22,480 nucleotides of DNA from the IMG/VR virus record IMGVR_UViG_3300017963_003465, positions 1 through 22,480 of that record, one strand, 5' to 3'. Under the pieces are notes generated by a model, which worked only from the letters and a program-made list of their open reading frames with translations, had not been told where the DNA came from and searched no databases. Shown here piece by piece: positions 9,287 through 21,880 of this stretch. Source of the stretch: a virus. Position 1 is the first letter of the stretch, and each line of letters starts with the position of its first letter. Both the position numbers and the translations under genes were made by a program.

Positions 9287-10522
9287 ATGAATATTAGAGA
9301 CTTAGTTAAAAAGTGGGATGCTGTTCTTCAGGAAGGGAAACAGATTACATCTGACAGCGTTAAAAAGTCTACGGCTATTATGCTTGAAAACCAACATAAT
9401 TTCCTGATGGAAACTACAGGTTGGGGTACAGGTGCAGATTCTTTAGGTGCAGGTGATGGTAGAGGTATTGATGGTGCTACTTATCCTACATCAGGTATGT
9501 TTCATAAGATTGCTGTTCCTATGGTACGTAGAACTTTCCCTGAATTGGTTGCTCATCAATTAGTTGGTGTACAGCCTTTAACCGGACCTGTTGGACTTGC
9601 TTTCGCTTTGAGATTTAGAGCAGGAACCACAGCAGGAAGTTACGTAGCTAATTCTACTGAACTTGGATACAATAACATTGATTCAAGCTATTCAGGGTCT
9701 TATATTACATCAGCAGGTGAAGCACTTGGTTCTAAAGCAGGTACAGGTGTTGGAAACGATATCGGTCTTGGTATTGGAGCAGGTACACATATCCGTGAAG
9801 TGAACTTGACTGTTGAAAAGACTCAAGTAGAAGCAAAAACAAGAAAATTGAGAAGCAGATGGTCTCTTGAGATTGCTCAAGACCTTAAAGCAATGCATGG
9901 ATTAAATCTTGAGGAAGAAATGATGGATATTCTTGCCTATGAGATTACCCAAGAAATTGACCGTGAACTTATGTCAGCTATTGATGCTACAGTACGTGGT
10001 GTTAGTGGATATGATACTACATGGGATTTTCTTGCAAGTGCTCAAGGTGTTAAGGGTAGATGGGAAATGGAAAGATATAGAGAACTGTATCACAACATTA
10101 TCCGTAGAACTCAAGATATTGCTATCAATACAAGACGTGGTAGTGGTAATTGGTTAGTTGGTAATCCAAGAGCCGTTGCTATTCTTGAGACATTGGCAGC
10201 TTTCGCTATTGCTCCTGTCCCTGGTGATGTTACCACACAACCTACGGGTGTCAGCAGAATTGGTTCACTTGATGGTAGACTTGTTGTTTATAGAGATACC
10301 TTTGAGAGTAGAGATCAATTGATTGTTGGTTATAAGGGACCAAGTGAGTATGATACTGGTGTTATTTATCTACCTTACATTCAATTATTGGCTAGTAGAG
10401 CAGTATTTGAAAACTCATTTCAACCTACTGTTGGATTGATGAGTAGATATGCCATTCATAACCATTTGTTTGGTGCGAGAGAGTATTACCAATTGATTCA
10501 GTTGGCAAATATTCCTCAATAA
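9287..10522 (+). CDS. 23: Major capsid protein (T4 gp23-like)
   Basis: A 411-residue HK97-fold shell protein. The segment MVRRTFPELVAHQLVGVQPL at about residues 78-97 followed by FALRFRA is the hallmark of gp23 homologues. T4 gp23 (521 residues) loses its first 65 residues by cleavage after I-A-E; here LQE|G (Glu16), MLE|N (Glu34) and FLME|T (Glu42) are candidates, and the last one sits just before the glycine-rich stretch that begins the mature protein in this family. The protein is about 110 residues shorter than T4 gp23, so an insertion domain is probably reduced or absent. It is preceded by the scaffold gene and a TAGGAGG ribosome site. It ends at a terminator shared with the opposite-strand operon. 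Confidence 0.93.
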   Translation: MNIRDLVKKWDAVLQEGKQITSDSVKKSTAIMLENQHNFLMETTGWGTGADSLGAGDGRGIDGATYPTSGMFHKIAVPMVRRTFPELVAHQLVGVQPLTGPVGLAFALRFRAGTTAGSYVANSTELGYNNIDSSYSGSYITSAGEALGSKAGTGVGNDIGLGIGAGTHIREVNLTVEKTQVEAKTRKLRSRWSLEIAQDLKAMHGLNLEEEMMDILAYEITQEIDRELMSAIDATVRGVSGYDTTWDFLASAQGVKGRWEMERYRELYHNIIRRTQDIAINTRRGSGNWLVGNPRAVAILETLAAFAIAPVPGDVTTQPTGVSRIGSLDGRLVVYRDTFESRDQLIVGYKGPSEYDTGVIYLPYIQLLASRAVFENSFQPTVGLMSRYAIHNHLFGAREYYQLIQLANIPQ

Positions 10523-10541
10523 TATATAAAATGAGGGGTTC

Positions 10542-10571
10542 AAAAGGGGGAGTTTTACTCCCCCTTTTTTT
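10542..10571. terminator. Bidirectional hairpin terminator between converging operons
   Basis: AAAAGGGGGAG pairs with CTCCCCCTTTT around a TTTTA loop, with seven T residues on the plus-strand side and an A run that reads as T on the minus strand. It can end both the capsid transcript and the minus-strand operon, whose last stop codon overlaps the T run. Confidence 0.85.
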
Positions 10572-10932
10572 ATCCTAATTTAAATCCTGCTTTTTCCTTC
10601 TGATTAGAATCAATAAGATATGCTATAGAATACATTTCTTGCAATGACATAATATACATAGGAGAATGAGAATTACATTCGATAATTCTATTTTGACCAC
10701 TTAACTTAATATCATATTCAGCACATTTAGCAAATACATTACCAAATTCAGTTTTACAATAATTAAGGTTTCTACAATTATAACACATACCAATTAAATC
10801 TTCTAATAATCCCTTTCTTTCATTACCATGAGAATTCCATGCTTCCATTCCCAAAGAAGAAGATATGGTTTCTAATTGTTCTTCTACCGCACGTCTATCA
10901 TCATTTTTTAATTCAGTTATTTTTTTTGCCAT
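10570..10932 (-). CDS. Cysteine-rich hypothetical protein, probable zinc binder
   Basis: A 120-residue protein with an N-terminal helical region and cysteines at 50, 53, 59, 70 and 86 (CYNCRNLNYC, then KC and EC). The spacing suggests a small zinc-ribbon-like site. No family name is recognised. It is the last gene of the minus-strand operon, 3 bases after the kinase-like gene, with GAAGGA as ribosome site. It may serve as a small nucleic-acid or protein-binding accessory factor, but this is only inferred from the cysteine pattern. Confidence 0.6.
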   Translation of the reverse strand: MAKKITELKNDDRRAVEEQLETISSSLGMEAWNSHGNERKGLLEDLIGMCYNCRNLNYCKTEFGNVFAKCAEYDIKLSGQNRIIECNSHSPMYIMSLQEMYSIAYLIDSNQKEKAGFKLG

Positions 10933-10935
10933 AAA

Positions 10936-11325
10936 TTATCCTTCCACCATCATTTCTTCATGATCAGGTTCTTCATAATCACTACCTTCCCATAATGTAC
11001 CATTAGGCATATAAATCAACATTGATTTATCAAATAATTTTCTTGCTTTCATTCTCCATTCCTTTTTAGGGGATATAATAGCAACAATAACAATAAATCC
11101 TTGCTTTTCAGCTATGGCAGCATAATTAGCAATTTTCATTATATGTTTTTCTCTATTATCATCTTGTGGAGAAGATATATCTTCAATTACATCCCCAAAT
11201 TGTTCCCTAACAATGTCACTATCTAAAAACAATACTTTTTGATCAAAAGATTCGAACATTCTTTTTAATCTTTTAGCATATACTGTTTTACCTGATGATG
11301 ACCTTCCTGTTATCCAAATTACCAT
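10936..11325 (-). CDS. Compact APS-kinase-like P-loop kinase
   Basis: A 129-residue P-loop protein. GRSSSGKT at residues 7-14 is the Walker A motif; DSDIVR (35-40), DDNREKHI (55-62) and ISPKKEWR (84-91) match conserved positions of adenylylsulfate kinase, which phosphorylates APS to PAPS. The usual enzyme has about 170-200 residues; here the region after the ISP motif is short and runs straight into WEGSDYEEPDHEE, which resembles the family's C-terminal FTGxxxPYExP. It is therefore a reduced version, and its substrate could differ (another nucleotide or a phosphosugar). It lies 3 bases after the deaminase-like gene with AGGAG as ribosome site, in an operon of sugar-nucleotide and nucleotide enzymes. 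Confidence 0.75.
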   Translation of the reverse strand: MVIWITGRSSSGKTVYAKRLKRMFESFDQKVLFLDSDIVREQFGDVIEDISSPQDDNREKHIMKIANYAAIAEKQGFIVIVAIISPKKEWRMKARKLFDKSMLIYMPNGTLWEGSDYEEPDHEEMMVEG

Positions 11326-11328
11326 ATT

Positions 11329-11961
11329 TTACTCCTTAATAAAATCATATGTTCTAATTGCAATTCCACTTTCTTTTAAAAGATATGGGGCTGATTGATC
11401 ATAAAATGATCCATCAAGTTTAGTAACAATAATTTCTTCAATGCCTGAATTGATTATTTCAATAAGACAAGGAGTACAAGGTACACCACATGTCATATAA
11501 ATTTTAGTTCCTTTCAATGCATGAAGACCTAATCTTGCAGCATTAACAATAGCATTTCTTTCTGCATGTCCTGCTACACACCATTCTAAACCTTGTCCTG
11601 ATTTAAATCCCATTTCAGGTACATATCTTGGACATTTACCTTTCAAATATTTATTGAAGAAATCTCCATTTGGTGAGATATAACCAAATGAACTTTTTCC
11701 ATCATTACCAGGATGTTCAACAGAATTAGCAATAGCAACCTTTCTCATATCTCCATCTACTAACCATCTTTCATCACATGTTCTTACGCCTCTAGGTGGT
11801 CCGTTATATCCTGTTGAAATAACTGTATTATCTAACACAATTGCTGCTCCAATTTTTCTTGAAAGACATTTTGAATTAGATGCAACCACTTTACAAATAT
11901 TATAAAAATATTCATCCCATGATTTGGGATTCTCCATATCCACAGTATAACTATTTATCAT
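11329..11961 (-). CDS. dCMP-deaminase-family zinc protein
   Basis: A 210-residue member of the cytidine/deoxycytidylate deaminase family. The zinc and catalytic motif HAE (132-134, GHAERNA) and the second zinc motif PCTPC (161-165) are intact. SRKIGAAIV and GYNGPPRGV near residues 34-60 match dCMP deaminases, which turn dCMP to dUMP for thymidylate synthesis; T4 encodes one (cd, 193 residues). An insertion at about 61-125 with Cys and Trp residues lies between the substrate region and HAE, a place where dCMP deaminases carry a regulatory or extra zinc segment. Its start overlaps the epimerase gene by 11 bases, with AAGGAG upstream. Other nucleotides or modified bases are possible substrates. 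Confidence 0.82.
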   Translation of the reverse strand: MINSYTVDMENPKSWDEYFYNICKVVASNSKCLSRKIGAAIVLDNTVISTGYNGPPRGVRTCDERWLVDGDMRKVAIANSVEHPGNDGKSSFGYISPNGDFFNKYLKGKCPRYVPEMGFKSGQGLEWCVAGHAERNAIVNAARLGLHALKGTKIYMTCGVPCTPCLIEIINSGIEEIIVTKLDGSFYDQSAPYLLKESGIAIRTYDFIKE

Positions 11962-12898
11962 TTTTCATCTCCTTTATTGTTTTCATTAATCCTTCTATTA
12001 ATCCTACTTTTGGACTCCATCCTAATTTAAATGTTGCTTCTGATATATCAGGTATCCTTTGAAATACTTCTGAATCAGACCTATCATCCATCAATTTAAA
12101 ATTTGGTCTTTCCACCATTAAATTAAAAATAAGATAAGCAAGTTTTTTAATTGATATATATCCTGATGGGTTTCCAATATTTATTGGTCTTGTTATTCCT
12201 TCTGTTTCCATTAACAAATTTAAAGCCTCTACTGTATCAGTAACATAACAGAATGATCTTTTTTGATCTCCTGAACCATGAATCTTGATTGGTCTCTCAT
12301 AGATAAAATTTGCTATAACCCTTCCATCATCTTTCGCCATTCTTGGACCGTAACAGTTAAATAGTCTTGCAATCCTAACTTCAGGTTCTTTATATTTCTT
12401 CAAATAGTTCCATATTAATGTTTCTGCTGCTCTTTTTCCTTCAACATAACAAGACCTATCAGATAATATATTAATATTTTCACCTATTTGAAGCTCATTT
12501 ATGGGTTGATTTTTAGTGTCACCATAAACTTCACTACTTGATGTAAATAGAAACCTTGCTTTACATTCAGTTGCTAATTGCAACATATTATATGTTCCCA
12601 TGATGTTACTCATCATTGTTTCTATTGGCATTTTCTGATAATGTACGGGGGATGCAGGACAAGCTAAATGATAAATTCTATCTATATTTCTATATTTCTT
12701 ATTGATATTACACCATATATAGGAATTTGACATTTTATTTCTAACATCAGCAATCAAAAAATGTACGTCTTTAGGTACATTATCTATTGATCCATTTAAT
12801 AGATTATCAATACCCACAACTGTATGTCCTTGATTTAACAACAAATCACATAAATGAGACCCTATTAAACCTGCTGCTCCTGTAACTAAAATATTCAT
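11951..12898 (-). CDS. NAD-dependent sugar-nucleotide epimerase/decarboxylase (UXS-like)
   Basis: A 315-residue short-chain dehydrogenase of the extended type. GAAGLIG at 7-13 binds NAD; the catalytic set is Ser122 or a neighbour in TSSSEVYG, Tyr151 and Lys155 (YVEGK). HLACPASPVHYQ (78-88), ARLFNCYGPRM and DQKRSFCYVTD match UDP-glucuronate decarboxylase (UDP-xylose synthase), giving that as the most likely reaction; a related 4-epimerase or dehydratase is the alternative. It is the first gene of the minus-strand operon, behind AGGAG and a sigma70-like promoter. With the DegT aminotransferase at the left of the window it could feed a sugar such as a 4-amino pentose, but the two are 10 kb apart and on opposite strands. 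Confidence 0.85.
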   Translation of the reverse strand: MNILVTGAAGLIGSHLCDLLLNQGHTVVGIDNLLNGSIDNVPKDVHFLIADVRNKMSNSYIWCNINKKYRNIDRIYHLACPASPVHYQKMPIETMMSNIMGTYNMLQLATECKARFLFTSSSEVYGDTKNQPINELQIGENINILSDRSCYVEGKRAAETLIWNYLKKYKEPEVRIARLFNCYGPRMAKDDGRVIANFIYERPIKIHGSGDQKRSFCYVTDTVEALNLLMETEGITRPINIGNPSGYISIKKLAYLIFNLMVERPNFKLMDDRSDSEVFQRIPDISEATFKLGWSPKVGLIEGLMKTIKEMKNDK

Positions 12899-12917
12899 AT
12901 TAACTCCTTTTTTGCAT

Positions 12918-12946
12918 AGTATACCACAAAAATCCCAAAATGTTAA
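12918..12946 (-). promoter_or_regulatory. Sigma70-like promoter of the minus-strand operon
   Basis: On the minus strand TTAACA (12941-12946) and TATACT (12918-12923) are separated by exactly 17 bases, and a TGG just before the -10 makes an extended -10 element. It lies 20 bases before the ATG of the UXS-like gene. This is a host-type vegetative promoter, in contrast to the TATAAATA motifs before the plus-strand late genes, and suggests early or middle expression. Confidence 0.7.
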
Positions 12947-12978
12947 TTGACTTTTTTAATTTTTTTTGGTAAAGAATG

Positions 12979-12986
12979 CATAAATA
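12979..12986 (+). promoter_or_regulatory. Possible T4-type late promoter before the small terminase gene
   Basis: CATAAATA, one mismatch from TATAAATA, lies 38 bases before the start codon at 13025 in the divergent gap. The spacing is like that of the exact matches elsewhere in the window. Confidence 0.4.
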
Positions 12987-13024
12987 TATACAGAAATACC
13001 ATTTATAAGGGGGAATTTGTATAT

Positions 13025-13498
13025 ATGCCAAGACATAATAATGAATTAAACTTAGATAATTTAGATCAAATTTTTCAGGAAACTGATAATCTTGATAGAG
13101 ACATGGAACAAAAAAGGGTTGACTTTCAAACCGATATAGACTATAGTGATGCAATAAAAACATTGGAAAGCAATATATATAATGCAAATCAATTATTGGA
13201 GAAAATACAGCATGAAATGAATAATGGTAATTTTTCCGCTAGATTAGCTGAAGTTGCGAGTACAGTTATTAATTCCATTACCCAAGCATCAAAAGAAATC
13301 CTTTCTGATGAAAACTATGGGGAATATATGGAAGTAAGAAGGGCATTGGTACAATTAAAGGCTAAGGAAATGGAAATTAAAGAGATGAGAGGGGTGAGAC
13401 CCACTAATCAAACCAATGTTCTTGTAACATCAAGGGAAGAACTTCTAAAAATGTTGCAGGATAAAAAGCCAAAGGAAATAGAATCAAACCAAACGTGA
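13025..13498 (+). CDS. 16: Probable terminase small subunit (T4 gp16-like)
   Basis: A 157-residue, mainly helical protein. T4 gp16 (164 residues) has an acidic N-terminus, a D-Y-x(3)-R entry, a central helical pair with an A-R/H-x-x-E-V element, and an end with a NA-V-x-x-S-x-x-EL motif. Here the order is DIDYSDAIKTLE (37-48), ARLAEVASTVINSI (72-85), then NVLVTSREELLKML (131-144), the same plan. It would bind the genome and stimulate the large subunit. The ATG at 13025 is chosen because AAGGGGG precedes it; an upstream ATG in frame lacks a ribosome site. In T4 gene 16 abuts gene 17; here it is separated from the large terminase by almost 7 kb holding the PrkA trio. The call rests on pattern, not on alignment. 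Confidence 0.65.
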   Translation: MPRHNNELNLDNLDQIFQETDNLDRDMEQKRVDFQTDIDYSDAIKTLESNIYNANQLLEKIQHEMNNGNFSARLAEVASTVINSITQASKEILSDENYGEYMEVRRALVQLKAKEMEIKEMRGVRPTNQTNVLVTSREELLKMLQDKKPKEIESNQT

Positions 13499-13511
13499 AA
13501 GGAGTCACAAT

Positions 13512-15500
13512 ATGGAAGTTTTGAATCAGGATTTTAGAGACATTATTTTAAAACAGCAAGAGGAAATTGGGCCTACTGTATGGGAAGGTAATGTTATAGA
13601 TTACATGGAGTTAGTAAAAGAAAACCCTATGCTTTCGATGCTTGCACCTGCAAGAATCTATAACATGATCATGAAAAAAGGTATTTCACCTGTTCCTGAA
13701 AATAGAAAAACTAGGGGATATGAAGACCTTGTATCATATAATTTCTTTAAGGGTAAAATCTTTGGAACATATGAGCCAATTCATGATATGATGAAGTTTC
13801 TCAAGGCAGCAGCAAGACGTACTGAAACAGGTAAACGTATTCTGATGCTTATGGGACCAGTTTCTTCAGGTAAATCTACCATTGCTTACCTTATTAAAAG
13901 AGGATTGGAAATGGATGATTCACCTATCTATGCTATTCAAGGGTGTCCTATTCATGAAGACCCACTTCATTCAGTTCCGTTAAGGTTTCGTGAAGAATGG
14001 AATGAAAAACTTGGTGTTCGTATTGAAGGTGAATTGTGTCCTGTATGTCAATTGAATTTGTTGAAAAATCATACATCTAAAGATGGTGTTGAAAAATGGT
14101 ATGAAATGCCTGTTGAAATGATTAAAATTTCAGAGCAAAGACGTACAGGTATTGGAACATTTTCTCCTACTGATCCTAAAAGTCAAGATATTACAGAATT
14201 GATTGGCAAGGTCAATATGTCAAAATTGCATATGTATGGTGAAAGTGATCCAAGAGCATATCAGTTTGATGGAGAACTTCAGGTTTCTAATCGTGGTCTT
14301 ATTGAATACATTGAAATCTTGAAAGCTGATCTTAAGTTTCACCATGTTCTTATTACGCTTGCTCAAGAACAGCTTATCAAAACGCCCGGATTTCCTCAAA
14401 TGTATCTTGATGAGCTTATCTTGTCTCATACTAATCAGACTGAATTTGATAAGTTTCGAAATGATCAAACCAATGAAGCTTTGCATAGCCGTATCTATCA
14501 TGTTAGAGTTCCTTGGAATGATACCATTAAAGATGAAATTGAGATTTACAAAAAACTGATTGCTGAATCTGAATTCAATAAGATTCATATTGCTCCGGGT
14601 ACTCTTGAAGTTGCTGCTCAATTTGCAATTCTTACAAGACTTGTACCTTCTAAAAAGATCAGTTTAATTAAAAAGATGAAACTGTATAATAATGAATACT
14701 TGGAAGAATTTTCTAAAGGTAAAGACAGAGATATCAAAGTTATACGTGAAGAAGGTAGAAAAAATGGGGAATGTATGAGTGGTATTGATCCACGTTTTAT
14801 CACTAATGCTATCAATATTGCTCTTGGTCAAAAAGAGCATGTTGAAACTGAAGATGAGAGATATCAAGGATGTATTACTCCACTTGATATGATTAGAGCA
14901 TTAAGAGATAATTTTGATCATCATATGGGTGGAAATGATAAAGACAAAGAAATGTTTATGAATCTTTTAACAGCAGGTGAAGATTCTGTTATTGCAGAAT
15001 ATAAAGAATTTGCTAAAAAAGAAGTAAGCAAAGCCTTTGTCCATGCCTTTGATGATCAAGCAGCAGAACTTTTTGAACGATATGATATCAACTGTAAAGC
15101 ATTCTGTAAAGATGAAACCGTTCTAGATGAGGTTACGGGTGAATATCATGAACCTGATGAAAAGATTCTAAGAGCAGTTGAAGAATTGATTCCTGTTCCC
15201 AATGAATCTAAACGTGAATTCCGTAAAGGGGTTTATGTTTATAAATCCGATTGCCTTGAACAAGGTAAAGAATGGAAATGGGATACTTATAAGCCATTAA
15301 AAGATGCAATTGAAAAGAAACTCATGGATGATCTTAAAAATGTTGTTACACTTTCAATTGCCAATACAGTATCTACTTCTTCTAAGGTTAAAGCAAGACG
15401 TTCAAGAGCTTTGAAGACTTTGAAGAAAAAAGGTTACTGTGTTCATTGTGCAAATGCTACTTTGGGTTTTGTAAGTGAAATCCTTAGACGTGAAAATTAA
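13512..15500 (+). CDS. prkA: PrkA-family AAA+ serine protein kinase (YeaG-like)
   Basis: A 662-residue protein, the size of E. coli YeaG/PrkA (644). The N-terminal AAA-type domain has Walker A GPVSSGKST at 115-123 and the family segments CPIHEDP (145), EGELCPVC (172-179), GTFSPTDPKSQD (215-226) and VSNRGLIEYIEILKA (258-272). The C-terminal PrkA domain is also complete: DEKILRAVEELIPVP, LKDAIEKKLMDDLKN and GYCVHCANATLGFVSEIL line up with the bacterial protein. PrkA is known as a kinase and, in some bacteria, an ATP-dependent protease linked to stress, starvation and sporulation. Here it is followed by DUF444 and SpoVR, its usual bacterial partners. The start follows AAAGGAGT, 13 bases after the small terminase stop. 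All key regions are intact, so it is probably active. Confidence 0.93.
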   Translation: MEVLNQDFRDIILKQQEEIGPTVWEGNVIDYMELVKENPMLSMLAPARIYNMIMKKGISPVPENRKTRGYEDLVSYNFFKGKIFGTYEPIHDMMKFLKAAARRTETGKRILMLMGPVSSGKSTIAYLIKRGLEMDDSPIYAIQGCPIHEDPLHSVPLRFREEWNEKLGVRIEGELCPVCQLNLLKNHTSKDGVEKWYEMPVEMIKISEQRRTGIGTFSPTDPKSQDITELIGKVNMSKLHMYGESDPRAYQFDGELQVSNRGLIEYIEILKADLKFHHVLITLAQEQLIKTPGFPQMYLDELILSHTNQTEFDKFRNDQTNEALHSRIYHVRVPWNDTIKDEIEIYKKLIAESEFNKIHIAPGTLEVAAQFAILTRLVPSKKISLIKKMKLYNNEYLEEFSKGKDRDIKVIREEGRKNGECMSGIDPRFITNAINIALGQKEHVETEDERYQGCITPLDMIRALRDNFDHHMGGNDKDKEMFMNLLTAGEDSVIAEYKEFAKKEVSKAFVHAFDDQAAELFERYDINCKAFCKDETVLDEVTGEYHEPDEKILRAVEELIPVPNESKREFRKGVYVYKSDCLEQGKEWKWDTYKPLKDAIEKKLMDDLKNVVTLSIANTVSTSSKVKARRSRALKTLKKKGYCVHCANATLGFVSEILRREN

Positions 15501-15501
15501 A

Positions 15502-15577
15502 GGGGTCAGTAGCTCAACGGGAGAGCAATGGCTTTGCAAGCCATAGGTTGGGGGTTCGAATCCCCTCTACTCCACCA
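15502..15577 (+). tRNA. tRNA-Ala (anticodon UGC), with one extra base in the acceptor stem
   Basis: Cloverleaf: D-stem GCTC/GAGC, anticodon stem ATGGC/GCCAT around TTTGCAA (anticodon TGC), variable loop AGGTT, T-stem GGGGG/CCCCT with loop TTCGAAT, and an encoded CCA end. The 3' acceptor strand CTACTCC pairs with GGGGTAG if the C at 15507 is bulged out, giving the G3-U70 pair that marks alanine tRNAs. It begins one base after the prkA stop, so it must be cut from the operon transcript. Confidence 0.88.
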
Positions 15578-15660
15578 TTAAGCTCTTGAGATTTCGGTTT
15601 GGTGGTTCTGTTAATAAAAGAGCCTAAAGATAAGTATGTAGAACCACCTTTATTTTTAAT
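15578..15660 (+). promoter_or_regulatory. Structured leader between tRNA-Ala and the DUF444 gene
   Basis: Two inverted repeats interlock here: TTA-GCTCTT (15578-15587) with AAGAGC-TAA (15618-15627, one A-C mismatch), and GGTGGTTCT (15601-15609) with AGAACCACC (15640-15648). The second stem is followed by TTTATTTTTAAT and then the AGAAAGG ribosome site at 15661-15667. The stems could coexist only as a pseudoknot, or act as alternatives. A role in attenuation or tRNA processing is inference. Confidence 0.45.
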
Positions 15661-15673
15661 AGAAAGGCTAACT

Positions 15674-17035
15674 ATGATTGTATATCATGATAATTGGGAA
15701 ACCGAAAAAGGTCTTAAAGATGCTAAGAGGCATCAAGAAAAGATTGATGAAGCAATACGTAAAAACGTAAGAGATGTTATAGGCAATGAAGATATTATTA
15801 CAGATAATGGAAAGAAAAGAGTACGTGTTTCTGTTAAAGGATTAAAAGATTGGAGATTTGTTCACGGTGGAACAGGTGGTGGTGGTGCAGGTGTAGGGCA
15901 AGGTGATAGTAAGCCTGGAGATATCATTAAAAGAAAACAAAAGCAGGGACAACCACAAAGAGGAAGTTTGGGACATTCAGAGGATATGGAAGTAGAAGTT
16001 GATATTGACTATCTACTTGATGTTATGTTTGAAGACCTTGGACTTCCTTGGTTGGATGAAAAAAAGAAAAATTCTATTGAAATTCCTAAAGGATGGAAGT
16101 TTGAATCCATATCTAAAACAGGTGTATATTCAAGAATTCATAAAAAAAGAACCATGAGAGAAGCAATAAAAAGAAGTGTTCTTTTTGTTCAGGAAATTAT
16201 TAGGAATACAAAACTCAAAGACATGGAGTTTGAAGAAGCTCAAGAATTAGCAGGTAAAGCACTTAATCAAGCTAAAGGTGATATAGAAAAAGCAATCGAA
16301 ATCGTTAATGAAGATAAGATTGATATGAATGAAGTTGCAGGATGTTTAATTCATGATGATGATTTACGCTTTAAGCAGATTACAGAAGATGTTGAAATTT
16401 GTTCTAAAGCTGTTGTATTTGCTATGATGGATGTATCAATGTCTATGACTCCTGATAAAAAATATCTTGTAAAGTCTCTTTTATTTTGGATGGTATCATG
16501 GTTACGTAAACAGTATGAATTTGTTGATATTAGATTTATTCAACATACTGAAATAGCAAGTGAAGTAGATGAAGATACATTTTTTTATGGTGGGTTGACA
16601 GGTGGAACACTTGCAAGTTCAGCTTTCAAAAAAGCCAACTATATTATTGATACAGAATATCCATTAAATGAATGGAATATTTATAGCATCTATTGTTCTG
16701 ATGGTGAAGATTTTGAACCGTTAGATGCAGTTAGTTCAATGGAAGATATGATAGAAAAAGGTATTAATATGTTGTCTTATATTGAAATTAAGCCATATCA
16801 TGATATGTTTGACCATGATATACAATACAGTTATGGATATTCAACATTACTTCCTGAATGTCTAAAAAGATGGAAATTCAAAGAAACCACATTGGGAAGC
16901 AATGAGAATCAAGGAAAATTTTGGATTAATAATGAAAAAAGATTTCTTCTTTCTGTTATTAAGGATAAATCTCAAATTTGGCCTTGCCTCCAGCATATGC
17001 TTGGTATTAATCATCCTGAAAGGACAGAAACATGA
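15674..17035 (+). CDS. yeaH: DUF444 / YeaH-family protein with von Willebrand A-like domain
   Basis: A 453-residue protein (E. coli YeaH 427). The N-terminus has a basic helical region and a glycine-rich loop (HGGTGGGGAGVGQG, 64-77), then DIDYLLDVMFEDLGLPWL (110-127) typical of the family. The C-terminal vWA-like domain keeps the metal-site motif DVSMS (253-257), the TGGT loop (309-312), WNIYSIYCSDGED and SYIEI. The segment between (about 180-225) differs from the enterobacterial protein. YeaH is the standard partner encoded with PrkA; its exact role is not known. The ATG at 15674 follows AGAAAGG by 6 bases; the frame stays open upstream to a TTG at 15599 but that would overlap the RNA leader. 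It overlaps the SpoVR gene by 4 bases. Confidence 0.92.
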   Translation: MIVYHDNWETEKGLKDAKRHQEKIDEAIRKNVRDVIGNEDIITDNGKKRVRVSVKGLKDWRFVHGGTGGGGAGVGQGDSKPGDIIKRKQKQGQPQRGSLGHSEDMEVEVDIDYLLDVMFEDLGLPWLDEKKKNSIEIPKGWKFESISKTGVYSRIHKKRTMREAIKRSVLFVQEIIRNTKLKDMEFEEAQELAGKALNQAKGDIEKAIEIVNEDKIDMNEVAGCLIHDDDLRFKQITEDVEICSKAVVFAMMDVSMSMTPDKKYLVKSLLFWMVSWLRKQYEFVDIRFIQHTEIASEVDEDTFFYGGLTGGTLASSAFKKANYIIDTEYPLNEWNIYSIYCSDGEDFEPLDAVSSMEDMIEKGINMLSYIEIKPYHDMFDHDIQYSYGYSTLLPECLKRWKFKETTLGSNENQGKFWINNEKRFLLSVIKDKSQIWPCLQHMLGINHPERTET

Positions 17036-18561
17036 GAATAGAAGAACTACCTAGACTTAAAAAAATAGAAGAACGTGTATATGAAATTTCAAAAGACATG
17101 GGACTTGACTTTTGTGATATTGAATTTGATGTTATCCCTAAAGAAAAAATGTTTGAAATGATGGCATATAATATGCCAGGACAAATTTCAAATTGGAAAT
17201 ATGGAAGGGATTATGAAAGAGTAAGAACCTTATATGAAAAACTTGGTCAAGCATTGCCTTATGAGGTAGTTGTAAATACTGTTCCTGCAAGAGCATATCT
17301 AATGATAGATAATACTATTGCTGTACAATCATTGATCATTGCTCATGTTGTGGGTCATGTTGCTTTTTATAAAATGAACAAATATCACTTTGAAAATGAT
17401 TCAAATATTTCAAGTAAGCTTTCTCTTGCTTCTAAAAGATTTGAAGAATATGAAAGAAGATATGGAATTGATATTGTTGAACAAACTGTTGATGCTGCTC
17501 ATGCTCTTATGTGGCATTCAAATCCTTGGTTGCCTGAAGAAACTGAACAAGAAAAACTTGAAAGAATGTTTGAAAGAATGAAGCAAAAAAAGCATGATAA
17601 ACAAGTAACAGAGTTTAATGATTTTTTTGAAAATGATGATGATGCTGAAATTGATAGGGAAAGATGGAATCATGATCTATATAGACAATTAAAAAATCAG
17701 ACTCCTGTTGAACCAACTGAAGACCTTCTAAGATATATCATAGACCATTCTAGAGTTCTTTCTGATTGGCAAAAAGATATACTTGAAATAGTTAGGGCAT
17801 GGGGTCAATATATTTGGCCTAGCATGAAAACAAAATACATGAATGAGGGGTTTGCTACCTATATACATGAAACCATTTTAAGACAATTGTTTAATGAAGG
17901 ATATTTAGATGCAACAGAACATGCAGAAACAAATTATTCCAATTCATTAGTTAAAGCTATGAATCCATATGCTATGAATCCTTATCTTATAGGAAGTGAA
18001 ATGTATTATGATATTATCGAAAGATGGGATACGGGTAGACATGGTAATGATTGGGATCAAATACAAAATCATGAAGAAAAAATCAATTATAATAATCAAT
18101 CCATGAAAGGTATAGAAAAAGTTTTTGAAATTGTTAGAACATCTAATGATTGGATGTTTATGAATAATTTCTTAACTACTGATCTTGTCAGAAAGCTTAA
18201 TTTATACCTATATATTAAGTCAAGTAATATATTTTATGAAGAATTGGTTGTTGCTGATAAAAAAGATGAGGAAATTAGAGATATCATCATTAGAAGTTTT
18301 TCTCATAGTGGAATTCCTAAAATATTTATAATTAATGGAAATTTTTATTCAAGAAATGAACTTTTATTGAAGCATGAACATATTGGTGTTGATCTTGAAC
18401 CTGAATATGCACAAAATACACTAAATCATATTCAATTTCTATGGGGTGAAAAATGCACCCTGAAAACCATTAGGAATAAACGTAAATTCAAATACGTTGC
18501 ATCTAAACCTAAAACAGAAGGGATTCCAGAATTAAGAATGAATCTTAATGATGATACTTAA
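17032..18561 (+). CDS. spoVR: SpoVR/YcgB-family protein
   Basis: A 509-residue protein, the same length as E. coli YcgB (510). Family signatures are GLDFCDIEFDVI (24-35), AHVVGHVAFYKMN (104-116), DLLRYIIDHS...LSDWQKDILEIVR (231-255) and YMNEGFATYIHE (269-280). The histidines of HxxxH (105 and 109) together with NEG...H279 look like a conserved metal-site set of the family. SpoVR is needed for normal spore cortex in Bacillus, but the family is widespread in non-spore formers as the third member of the PrkA-YeaH-SpoVR group, with unknown biochemistry. It begins in an ATGA overlap with the DUF444 gene, so the two are translationally coupled. The gene is full length with no visible damage. Confidence 0.93.
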   Translation: MRIEELPRLKKIEERVYEISKDMGLDFCDIEFDVIPKEKMFEMMAYNMPGQISNWKYGRDYERVRTLYEKLGQALPYEVVVNTVPARAYLMIDNTIAVQSLIIAHVVGHVAFYKMNKYHFENDSNISSKLSLASKRFEEYERRYGIDIVEQTVDAAHALMWHSNPWLPEETEQEKLERMFERMKQKKHDKQVTEFNDFFENDDDAEIDRERWNHDLYRQLKNQTPVEPTEDLLRYIIDHSRVLSDWQKDILEIVRAWGQYIWPSMKTKYMNEGFATYIHETILRQLFNEGYLDATEHAETNYSNSLVKAMNPYAMNPYLIGSEMYYDIIERWDTGRHGNDWDQIQNHEEKINYNNQSMKGIEKVFEIVRTSNDWMFMNNFLTTDLVRKLNLYLYIKSSNIFYEELVVADKKDEEIRDIIIRSFSHSGIPKIFIINGNFYSRNELLLKHEHIGVDLEPEYAQNTLNHIQFLWGEKCTLKTIRNKRKFKYVASKPKTEGIPELRMNLNDDT

Positions 18562-18608: not shown

Positions 18609-18642
18609 GCAGGGGGGTTGGATTTTTATCTGATCCCCCTGC
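18609..18642 (+). terminator. Hairpin after the SpoVR gene, probable terminator
   Basis: GCAGGGGG (18609-18616) pairs with CCCCCTGC (18635-18642) around an 18-base loop, followed by ATTAATTT. The T run is weak, but the place, just after the PrkA-DUF444-SpoVR unit, fits a terminator. Confidence 0.6.
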
Positions 18643-19688: not shown

Positions 19689-19881
19689 AATAAATCAAAT
19701 GTTGACATGGGAAAAAAAGCATGATATATGTGCTCATGAATTTAAAAAAGATTTTTCCCATTATACATCATTCGATGCTACTGAAAAGGAACCTTATTTC
19801 TATTGTCCCGATTGCCATACAAGATGGTATAAGAACATAATATGGAATCCCCAACAATGGGAAGAATGGATAAATGATTAA
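19681..19881 (+). CDS. Small zinc-ribbon-like protein
   Basis: A 66-residue protein with CAH near residue 17 and CPDC near residue 43 followed by HTRWY, a layout suggesting one zinc site (Cys/His plus CXXC). The ATG at 19681 is chosen because AAAGGAT precedes it and because the longer in-frame version would overlap the previous gene by over 50 bases. It overlaps both neighbours slightly, indicating translational coupling with the J-domain gene. No specific function recognised. Confidence 0.6.
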   Translation: MTKINQMLTWEKKHDICAHEFKKDFSHYTSFDATEKEPYFYCPDCHTRWYKNIIWNPQQWEEWIND

Positions 19882-20188
19882 TACAGATCAATATTTTAGA
19901 ATTTTTAAAATTAACAAGATTTCAGATATCTCTATGATTGAACTTAAAAGGAGATACCGTATTCTTGCAAAAAAATACCATCCTGATAAAGGTGGTAATT
20001 CTGCTAAATTTATTATTATTCAAAATGCATATAACTATATAAAACCATTAATTGAACGATATCAACAAATTGAAAATAGAAAATTCTTCAATAAAAATTT
20101 TCTTTATTATAGTAATGGAAGTATTTATGATAAAAAAAATCGTAGATGGATTAAATTAAAAGGACGTAAGATCAATGTAAATATATGA
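19874..20188 (+). CDS. J-domain protein (DnaJ-like co-chaperone fragment)
   Basis: A 104-residue protein whose first 60 residues form a J-domain: helix II IELKRRYRILAKKYHPDKGG with the essential HPD at 36-38, then helix III AKFIIIQNAYNYI. J-domains stimulate the ATPase of DnaK/Hsp70. There is no Gly/Phe or zinc-finger region of full DnaJ; the last 40 residues are basic (KKNRRWIKLKGRK). The gene lies directly before the terminator and the large terminase gene, so it might direct host DnaK to head assembly, packaging or regulation. The start overlaps the previous gene by 8 bases. The domain call is firm; the partner is inferred. Confidence 0.85.
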   Translation: MINTDQYFRIFKINKISDISMIELKRRYRILAKKYHPDKGGNSAKFIIIQNAYNYIKPLIERYQQIENRKFFNKNFLYYSNGSIYDKKNRRWIKLKGRKINVNI

Positions 20189-20272: not shown

Positions 20273-20280
20273 TATAAATA
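20273..20280 (+). promoter_or_regulatory. T4-type late promoter for the large terminase gene
   Basis: Exact TATAAATA, just downstream of a strong terminator and 31 bases before the ATG of the large terminase. Same arrangement as before the scaffold gene. Confidence 0.6.
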
Positions 20281-20311: not shown

Positions 20312-21880
20312 ATGGCAATTCGTTATGATGATAATTACATCAAAAGACCAAATACAGAATTAGAATATACAGATGAGCAGATACAAGAGCTATTAAAATG
20401 TAGAGATGATATATTATACTTTACAAAAAATTACGTTAAAATTGTTACATTGGATCAAGGTGAGGTTTTATTTGATCCATATCCATATCAAATTGATACA
20501 TTAAATCTTCTTGAACAAAATAGATTTTTTATTGGTCTTTGGGCAAGACAATCAGGTAAAACAACCATTGTAGCAAATTATGCTCTTTGGTATTCGATAT
20601 TTAATGATAATAAGAATATTGGTATTGTATCCAATAAAGAATCTTCAGCTAAAAGAATATTAGATAACATCAAAAAAATGTATGAAAGTTTACCTGCATG
20701 GGTAAAGCCCGGCGTAACAGAATATGCCAAAACCTCTATAACATTCGACAATGGAACAAAAATAATTATATCAGCTACCACACAAGATGCCTTTCGTGGT
20801 TGGCCTATGAATATCGTTATTTGTGATGAGTTTGCATTTGTTCCTTCTAATGCAGCAGAAGAATTTTGGGCAAGTAACTATCCTACTATTTCATCTTCTA
20901 CACAATCAAGAATCATTATTATATCAACTCCAAATGGCATGTTTAACATCTTCCATAGACTATGGATGGGTGCTAATGCTGATGGGGAACAAGGTAATTC
21001 TTTTGTTCCTCAAAAGGTAATTTGGGATAAGGTTCCGGGCAGAGATAAGGAATGGGCAAAAGAGCAGATCAAGAATCTTGGTATTCATGGATTCAATCAA
21101 GAATTTGCATGTAAGTTCCTTGGGTCTACAAATACAGTTATTAATCCTGAAGTATTAAGAACATTGCTTAGTATGGATATTGATCCAAGATTTATGGATT
21201 TAAAAGATAGATTGAGAATATGGGAAAAACCATTAGATGGATGTAAATATGTTATAGGTGTTGACCCTGCTAAAGGTACAGGAGAGCACTATTCTACAAT
21301 TCAAATCCTTAGAATAAACTCTACACTTCCCGTAGACCTTACTCAAGTTGCTGCATTTGAAGATAATCTAACGGATGTTTATGAATTTGCTCAAATAATT
21401 CATAGATTATCCATCTATTACAACAATGCATATATCCTATGTGAAAATAATGGTGAAGGTTCTGCTGTTATCAGTCAATTATGGTGGCATTGGGAGAATG
21501 AGAATTTAGTAAATACGGGGTCTAAAGAGGCGAATCTTGGTATTAGATCAAATAAGAATACCAAACCTAAAGCAGTACTGTTAATGAAGAAACTCATTGA
21601 AGATGGGTCTGTTGAGCTTAAAGATAGAGAGACCATTGAACAGTTGGGTTCTTATATTGAGGAAGAAGGGAAATTCTTTGGTAAAGACAAGGATGATGAC
21701 TTAGTTGATGCTTTATTTTGGGCTTGTTATTTATTTGAAATGAATATCTTAAGTGAGGAATGGTCATTTAAGGGAAATGAGGATGAAGATAAGGATGATG
21801 CATGGGGTATTCTTTCAGATATTGAAGATGATGTTGATGATTGGAGTTGGCTAACTAAATCAAGTGTTTTCGATATGTAA
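20312..21880 (+). CDS. 17: Terminase large subunit (T4 gp17-like)
   Basis: A 522-residue packaging motor. The ATPase domain has Walker A ARQSGKTT (78-85), Walker B IVICDEFAF (168-176) and a coupling motif STPNG (205-209). The C-terminal RNase H-like nuclease has GVDPAKG (Asp318), CENNGEG (Glu378) and KDDDLVDALFW (Asp462 or Asp466), the expected acidic triad. T4 gp17 has 610 residues; this one is shorter mainly at the N-terminus. It cuts concatemeric DNA and pumps it through the portal. The start follows AAGGGGTG by 6 bases. In T4 gene 17 follows gene 16 and precedes the tail sheath gene; here two small genes follow instead. Confidence 0.95.
   Translation: MAIRYDDNYIKRPNTELEYTDEQIQELLKCRDDILYFTKNYVKIVTLDQGEVLFDPYPYQIDTLNLLEQNRFFIGLWARQSGKTTIVANYALWYSIFNDNKNIGIVSNKESSAKRILDNIKKMYESLPAWVKPGVTEYAKTSITFDNGTKIIISATTQDAFRGWPMNIVICDEFAFVPSNAAEEFWASNYPTISSSTQSRIIIISTPNGMFNIFHRLWMGANADGEQGNSFVPQKVIWDKVPGRDKEWAKEQIKNLGIHGFNQEFACKFLGSTNTVINPEVLRTLLSMDIDPRFMDLKDRLRIWEKPLDGCKYVIGVDPAKGTGEHYSTIQILRINSTLPVDLTQVAAFEDNLTDVYEFAQIIHRLSIYYNNAYILCENNGEGSAVISQLWWHWENENLVNTGSKEANLGIRSNKNTKPKAVLLMKKLIEDGSVELKDRETIEQLGSYIEEEGKFFGKDKDDDLVDALFWACYLFEMNILSEEWSFKGNEDEDKDDAWGILSDIEDDVDDWSWLTKSSVFDM

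Follow-up and report, generated by a model that had tools for sequence, protein, structure and literature searches.

We have found that a large uncultured lineage of T4-like phages carries a complete PrkA-DUF444-SpoVR trio, in constant order, between the genes for the small (TerS) and large (TerL) terminase subunits. On balance, and with moderate confidence, we lean towards a reading in which the trio was captured once, is expressed late from the TerS promoter and acts as a protein-remodelling or quality-control machine that aids the starved cell until lysis. Gene content and order, the single origin of the trio, its purifying selection and conserved motifs, and the late-promoter pattern were computed from the window, which is a whole 22,480-bp IMG/VR virus fragment of metagenomic origin, and from its relatives.

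The window encodes a T4-type TerL, portal, protease, scaffold and major capsid protein and contains the late promoter TATAAATA, and can thus be assigned to the T4-like phages; its nearest cultured TerL is ~40% identical. These structural genes and TerS are the neighbours of the trio (Table 1), and the placement between the two terminase genes that had been proposed from sequence alone was borne out. The tight overlaps proposed with it hold for one junction: DUF444 and SpoVR overlap by 4 bp, the sole overlap among the trio genes, whereas TerS and PrkA are separated by 13 bp, and PrkA and DUF444 by 173 bp containing a tRNA-Ala gene. That gene, which falls within the inferred late operon, is found at the equivalent site in five relatives (L002, L004, L006, L009 and L010). 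Alignment makes ATG 15674 the most likely start of DUF444, rather than TTG 15599. The 1.75 kb between SpoVR and TerL hold small ORFs and a DnaJ-domain gene, the latter also found in nearer relatives. Two further regions of the window deserve mention. Upstream of the portal region, consecutive radical-SAM, aminotransferase and radical-SAM genes (126-2828) form a small biosynthetic set that is unusual in a T4-like phage. Between capsid and TerS lies a minus-strand island (10570-12898) with a dCMP deaminase and a nucleotide-sugar epimerase, part of which varies among relatives.

Table 1. Features of the trio region, in window coordinates.
Feature	Position	Strand	Basis
Late-promoter-like CATAAATA, 39 bp upstream of TerS ATG	12979..12986	+	One base off consensus TATAAATA
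TerS, gp16-like, first gene of inferred operon	13025..13498	+	phrog_445, E 1e-4, weak taken singly; family matched by 19/29 homologues
PrkA/YeaG-type AAA+ protein, 662 aa	13512..15500	+	Pfam, alignment, tree
tRNA-Ala (TGC)	15503..15577	+	ARAGORN
DUF444/YeaH-type vWA protein, 453 aa, intact MIDAS	15674..17035	+	Pfam, alignment
SpoVR/YcgB-type protein, 509 aa, HVVGH and NEGFA	17032..18561	+	Pfam, alignment, model
GC-rich hairpin 3' of SpoVR, possible operon end	18609..18642	+	Pattern match, not above shuffles
DnaJ-domain protein	19874..20188	+	Pfam DnaJ 2.5e-8
Late-promoter-like TATAAATA, 32 bp upstream of TerL	20273..20280	+	Motif match
TerL, gp17-like	20312..21880	+	Pfam Terminase_6N/6C, several PHROG terminase families

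The three proteins are full length, as the sequence-only reading had held, with Pfam matches spanning nearly the whole of each: AAA_PrkA (PF08298, 2e-110) and the C-terminal domain PF06798 (4e-55) in PrkA, PF04285 (4e-84) in DUF444, and PF04293 (3e-92) with SpoVR_C (PF24755, 3e-8) in SpoVR. Their signature motifs likewise proved intact, and the catalytic and ligand residues are kept on alignment of the relatives. In PrkA, the Walker A motif reads GPVSSGKST, and G115, P116, K121 and S122 are present in all 66 phage and all 80 bacterial sequences; DUF444 conserves the vWA MIDAS pattern DxSxS...T...D, and SpoVR has both HxxxH (HVVGH) and NEG (NEGFA). Conservation of the three motif sets extends over 66-75 phage relatives per gene, the exceptions being occasional gaps in the alignments and conservative substitutions.

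The predicted structure of SpoVR (pLDDT 87.5) resembles gluzincin peptidases in VIA-align, with Z scores of 13.0 to 3o0y and 10.8 to aminopeptidase N and later matches to ACE, M32 and M49, a comparison at fold level; Foldseek with the same model gave no significant match (E at least 0.1). A PDB sequence search returned one PrkA-related sequence (9xip/9xiq/9xir) and nothing for SpoVR or DUF444. SpoVR may have a gluzincin-like (M1-like) fold, without the HExxH glutamate. The canonical HExxH site was sought and is absent: the glutamate position is V (rarely A or C) in the phage proteins and V in 61/61 bacterial ones, and a canonical peptidase mechanism is therefore unlikely for SpoVR. A role in proteolysis, also suggested in the sequence-only reading, is possible for an AAA+ motor paired with a gluzincin-like protein, but that protein lacks the canonical catalytic Glu, and purified B. 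anthracis PrkA had negligible protease activity (PMC13001217). Each of the three proteins is interrupted at a conserved motif by inteins with LAGLIDADG domains in some contigs: PrkA in L159 (7988-11296), DUF444 at the MIDAS loop in L121 (12414-15077), and SpoVR right behind NEGFA in L039 (1462-4083), L086 (403-3090) and L161 (5261-7975). TerL also contains inteins in L057, L162, L161 and L214, some of them 3' of its Walker A motif RQSGK, and is broken into separate pieces in L035, L190 and L198.

Contigs gathered by PrkA, TerL and SpoVR searches formed 96 clusters when grouped by the exact 300-mers they have in common; the clusters share descent, so that counts among them are not counts of independent events. 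TerS-PrkA-DUF444-SpoVR-TerL lie on one strand in 50/50 IMG/VR contigs with all five genes, an order that is constant although TerL diverges to ~57% identity and that survives an inversion of the head module in L016. An assembly chimera or bacterial contamination, conceivable for a metagenome fragment, has a negligible probability given these junctions, repeated identically in dozens of contigs, and the deep clade that the phage genes form; the replicate contigs rule it out, and with it the contig break that could have undone the original observation. Among TerL-recruited contigs with >6 kb upstream, which were not selected for the trio apart from a few added contigs first met through PrkA, 34 have TerS and the complete trio, five have a partial trio at the contig end, and two lineages (L092 and L094) have TerS and TerL without it. 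The rooted TerL tree places L094 at the base and nests L092, on a long branch, among the trio phages through forks with support of 90-99. The history of the trio in this lineage is likely to comprise one gain and one loss. In place of the trio, the TerS-TerL slot holds a lytic-transglycosylase-like gene in L092 (9364-9978) and a PIN-PhoH-like gene in L094 (8685-9872), both named by eye from sequence, and a gene for an F5/8-type-C protein in the T4-like phage Melnitz (L302, 2894-4927). Since relatives keep such other cargo in this slot, position alone is a weak guide to function.

The origin of the trio was addressed with three trees. The 66 phage PrkA sequences form one clade (SH-aLRT 100) on a long stem, and the phage sequences are likewise united, separately from bacteria, in SpoVR and DUF444 trees built with a simpler model (SH-aLRT 100 in both). 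A recent transfer from one bacterial genus, the outcome that would have deflated the initial proposal, is ruled out by these three trees. Among the 80 bacterial loci listed, the closest are 40-44% identical and the best belong mainly to Chloroflexota, Acidobacteriota and Bacillota; the order PrkA-DUF444-SpoVR occurs in 56 of these 80 nearest loci. No close cellular relative pointing to a host was seen among them. In the PrkA tree, Thermus-phage PrkA is a separate clade, and L160 and L163 nest within bacteria. The L160 trio (9965-15739), on a 105-kb IMG/VR contig, is nested among Chloroflexota sequences; either the trio was captured a second time, independently, or the contig is bacterial and misclassified. 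L163 (1-4902) and Enterobacter phage LAU1 (L021, 1-3308) have prkA-DUF444 pairs at the edge of phage or prophage records, followed in L163 by a recombinase-like gene; these pairs are probably host flank, not phage cargo.

The trio is under purifying selection. Its dN/dS values (~0.02-0.18, for pairs with finite dS) are near those of TerL and capsid, and PrkA is conserved to the level of the capsid protein (median distance 0.33 versus 0.32). The earlier suggestion that selection retains the whole module is strongly supported by the 50/50 order, the low dN/dS and the conserved motifs. That the three are passenger genes of no benefit to the phage would suit a TerS-TerL interval tolerant of varied inserts, but is very improbable in view of the strong purifying selection, the intact motifs and an order kept while TerL diverges to ~57% identity.

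The late promoter of T4-like phages, TATAAATA, has 13 occurrences in the window, where 4.5 would be expected. The 150 nt upstream of a gene contain it in 31/58 contigs for TerS, 38/78 for TerL and 9/27 for portal, compared with 3.5% of random windows; NATAAATA is found in that stretch ahead of TerS in 48/58 contigs. No TATAAATA was found within 150 nt upstream of PrkA (0/69), DUF444 (0/73) or SpoVR (0/78). Because the motif precedes TerS and TerL and never the three trio genes, the trio can probably be placed in a TerS-led late operon; most simply, TerS and the three genes would be transcribed as a single late unit. Counts of sigma-70-type promoters and terminators were not above shuffles, and the gp55 sigma factor is not named in the examined stretches of the Melnitz annotation.

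This layout bears on the idea, which goes back to the sequence-only reading, that the trio is a host-takeover module altering dormancy or sporulation when infection begins. The bacterial genes do act in starvation, stress and sporulation (PMC4664914, PMC13001217), and some phages are known to carry other sporulation genes (PMC10294663, PMC9429907). However, there is no sign of a spore-forming host, the trio sits in the late structural block, and its late-type promoter arrangement suggests that it is expressed alongside the packaging genes, once the host has been taken over. Action on dormancy early in infection agrees poorly with that arrangement, and we consider it improbable.

A closer contender is an accessory role in packaging or head assembly, in which the trio would remodel terminase, portal or prohead, or strip DNA-bound proteins before packaging. 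We regard this as a lesser possibility: the trio has a fixed place between TerS and TerL throughout the lineage, probably shares a late unit with TerS, has a PrkA conserved to capsid-protein level and lies near portal/TerL or TerL even in the unrelated Thermus phages Lalka27a and phiYS40, but the nested lineage L092 lost it and retains TerS and TerL, the terminase is 30 kb from the trio in Thermus phage MN1 and far from PrkA/SpoVR in RsoM2USA, and unrelated cargo occupies the slot in other T4-like phages. The nested loss, MN1 and RsoM2USA weaken a packaging-essential role in particular. The more specific proposal of a dedicated late-stage machine, in which AAA+ motor, vWA adaptor and metal-site subunit are coupled to TerS and remodel terminase, prohead or packaging-stage DNA-bound proteins, is unlikely; if true, the TerS-coupled trio would represent a packaging accessory of a new class, and the bacterial family as a whole would gain its first defined substrate.

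For the capture and late-stage remodelling that we favour, the steps would be as follows. An ancestor of the lineage may have taken up a complete bacterial prkA-DUF444-spoVR operon once, which then became fixed in the TerS-TerL slot. Transcribed from the late promoter ahead of TerS, its products would arrive together with the head and packaging proteins. PrkA would act as the ATP-driven AAA+ motor, DUF444 as a vWA (MIDAS) adaptor and SpoVR as a metal-site protein of gluzincin-like fold, the three forming a remodelling or quality-control machine for proteins in late infection that could keep the exhausted, starved cell productive up to lysis, much as its bacterial counterpart sustains starved cells. 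Late expression, complex formation, remodelling activity and a benefit to the phage are all what we infer here. E. coli mutants in yeaG and in yeaH have a nitrogen-starvation phenotype in common, and mutants in the AAA+ and kinase domains do not complement (PMC4664914). In B. anthracis, prkA is required for sporulation and survival of osmotic stress, and both kinase and protease activities of the purified protein were negligible in vitro (PMC13001217). That Thermus phages, jumbo phages and possibly L160 acquired such genes separately speaks for a general benefit at the level of the cell.

Retention of the trio implies that the phage gains something from it late in infection. A phage lineage that has all three genes in fixed order, and apparently controls them as late genes, makes a compact model in which to study a trio that is widespread in bacteria. 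Particular residues to probe are suggested by the inteins at conserved motifs and by SpoVR itself, apparently gluzincin-like but lacking the catalytic Glu.

Phage carriage of the trio is not new. The sequence-only reading had asked whether such trios were already described, and they are: the complete trio has been annotated in tailed phages since phiYS40, namely in the Thermus phages phiYS40, TMA, phiLo, MN1 and Lalka, and PHROGs contains families for all three proteins. The conserved late-operon arrangement between TerS and TerL was not found described in the open-access literature, subscription papers being mostly outside the search. Against ~2,500 public phage records with a TerL match, mostly enterobacterial and cyanobacterial T4-like phages, only 11 Thermus phage records, four uncultured jumbo phages and LAU1 have a PrkA match. 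The Thermus-phage trio lies near TerL in Lalka27a and phiYS40, as in the lineage described here, but has the order vWA-SpoVR-PrkA, ~23-35% identity, its own PrkA clade, unrelated phage backbones and a location that is not between TerS and TerL. The Ralstonia jumbo phage RsoM2USA has PrkA (ORF30) and SpoVR (ORF28) close together, with proteobacterial best matches and the terminase ~135 kb off; DUF444 is not among the genes given in the available part of that report (PMC8504454).

Like the trio, the pairs MoxR-vWA, RavA-ViaA and CbbQ-CbbO place an AAA+ ATPase beside a MIDAS vWA partner, but PrkA belongs to another AAA+ family and is accompanied by SpoVR. A close counterpart is the bacterial PrkA-YhbH/YeaH-SpoVR (yeaG-yeaH-ycgB) module, with the same three families and motifs, from which the phage trio differs in forming its own deep clade, at no more than 44% identity to the 80 listed loci, and in its linkage with terminase genes and with a late promoter of phage type.
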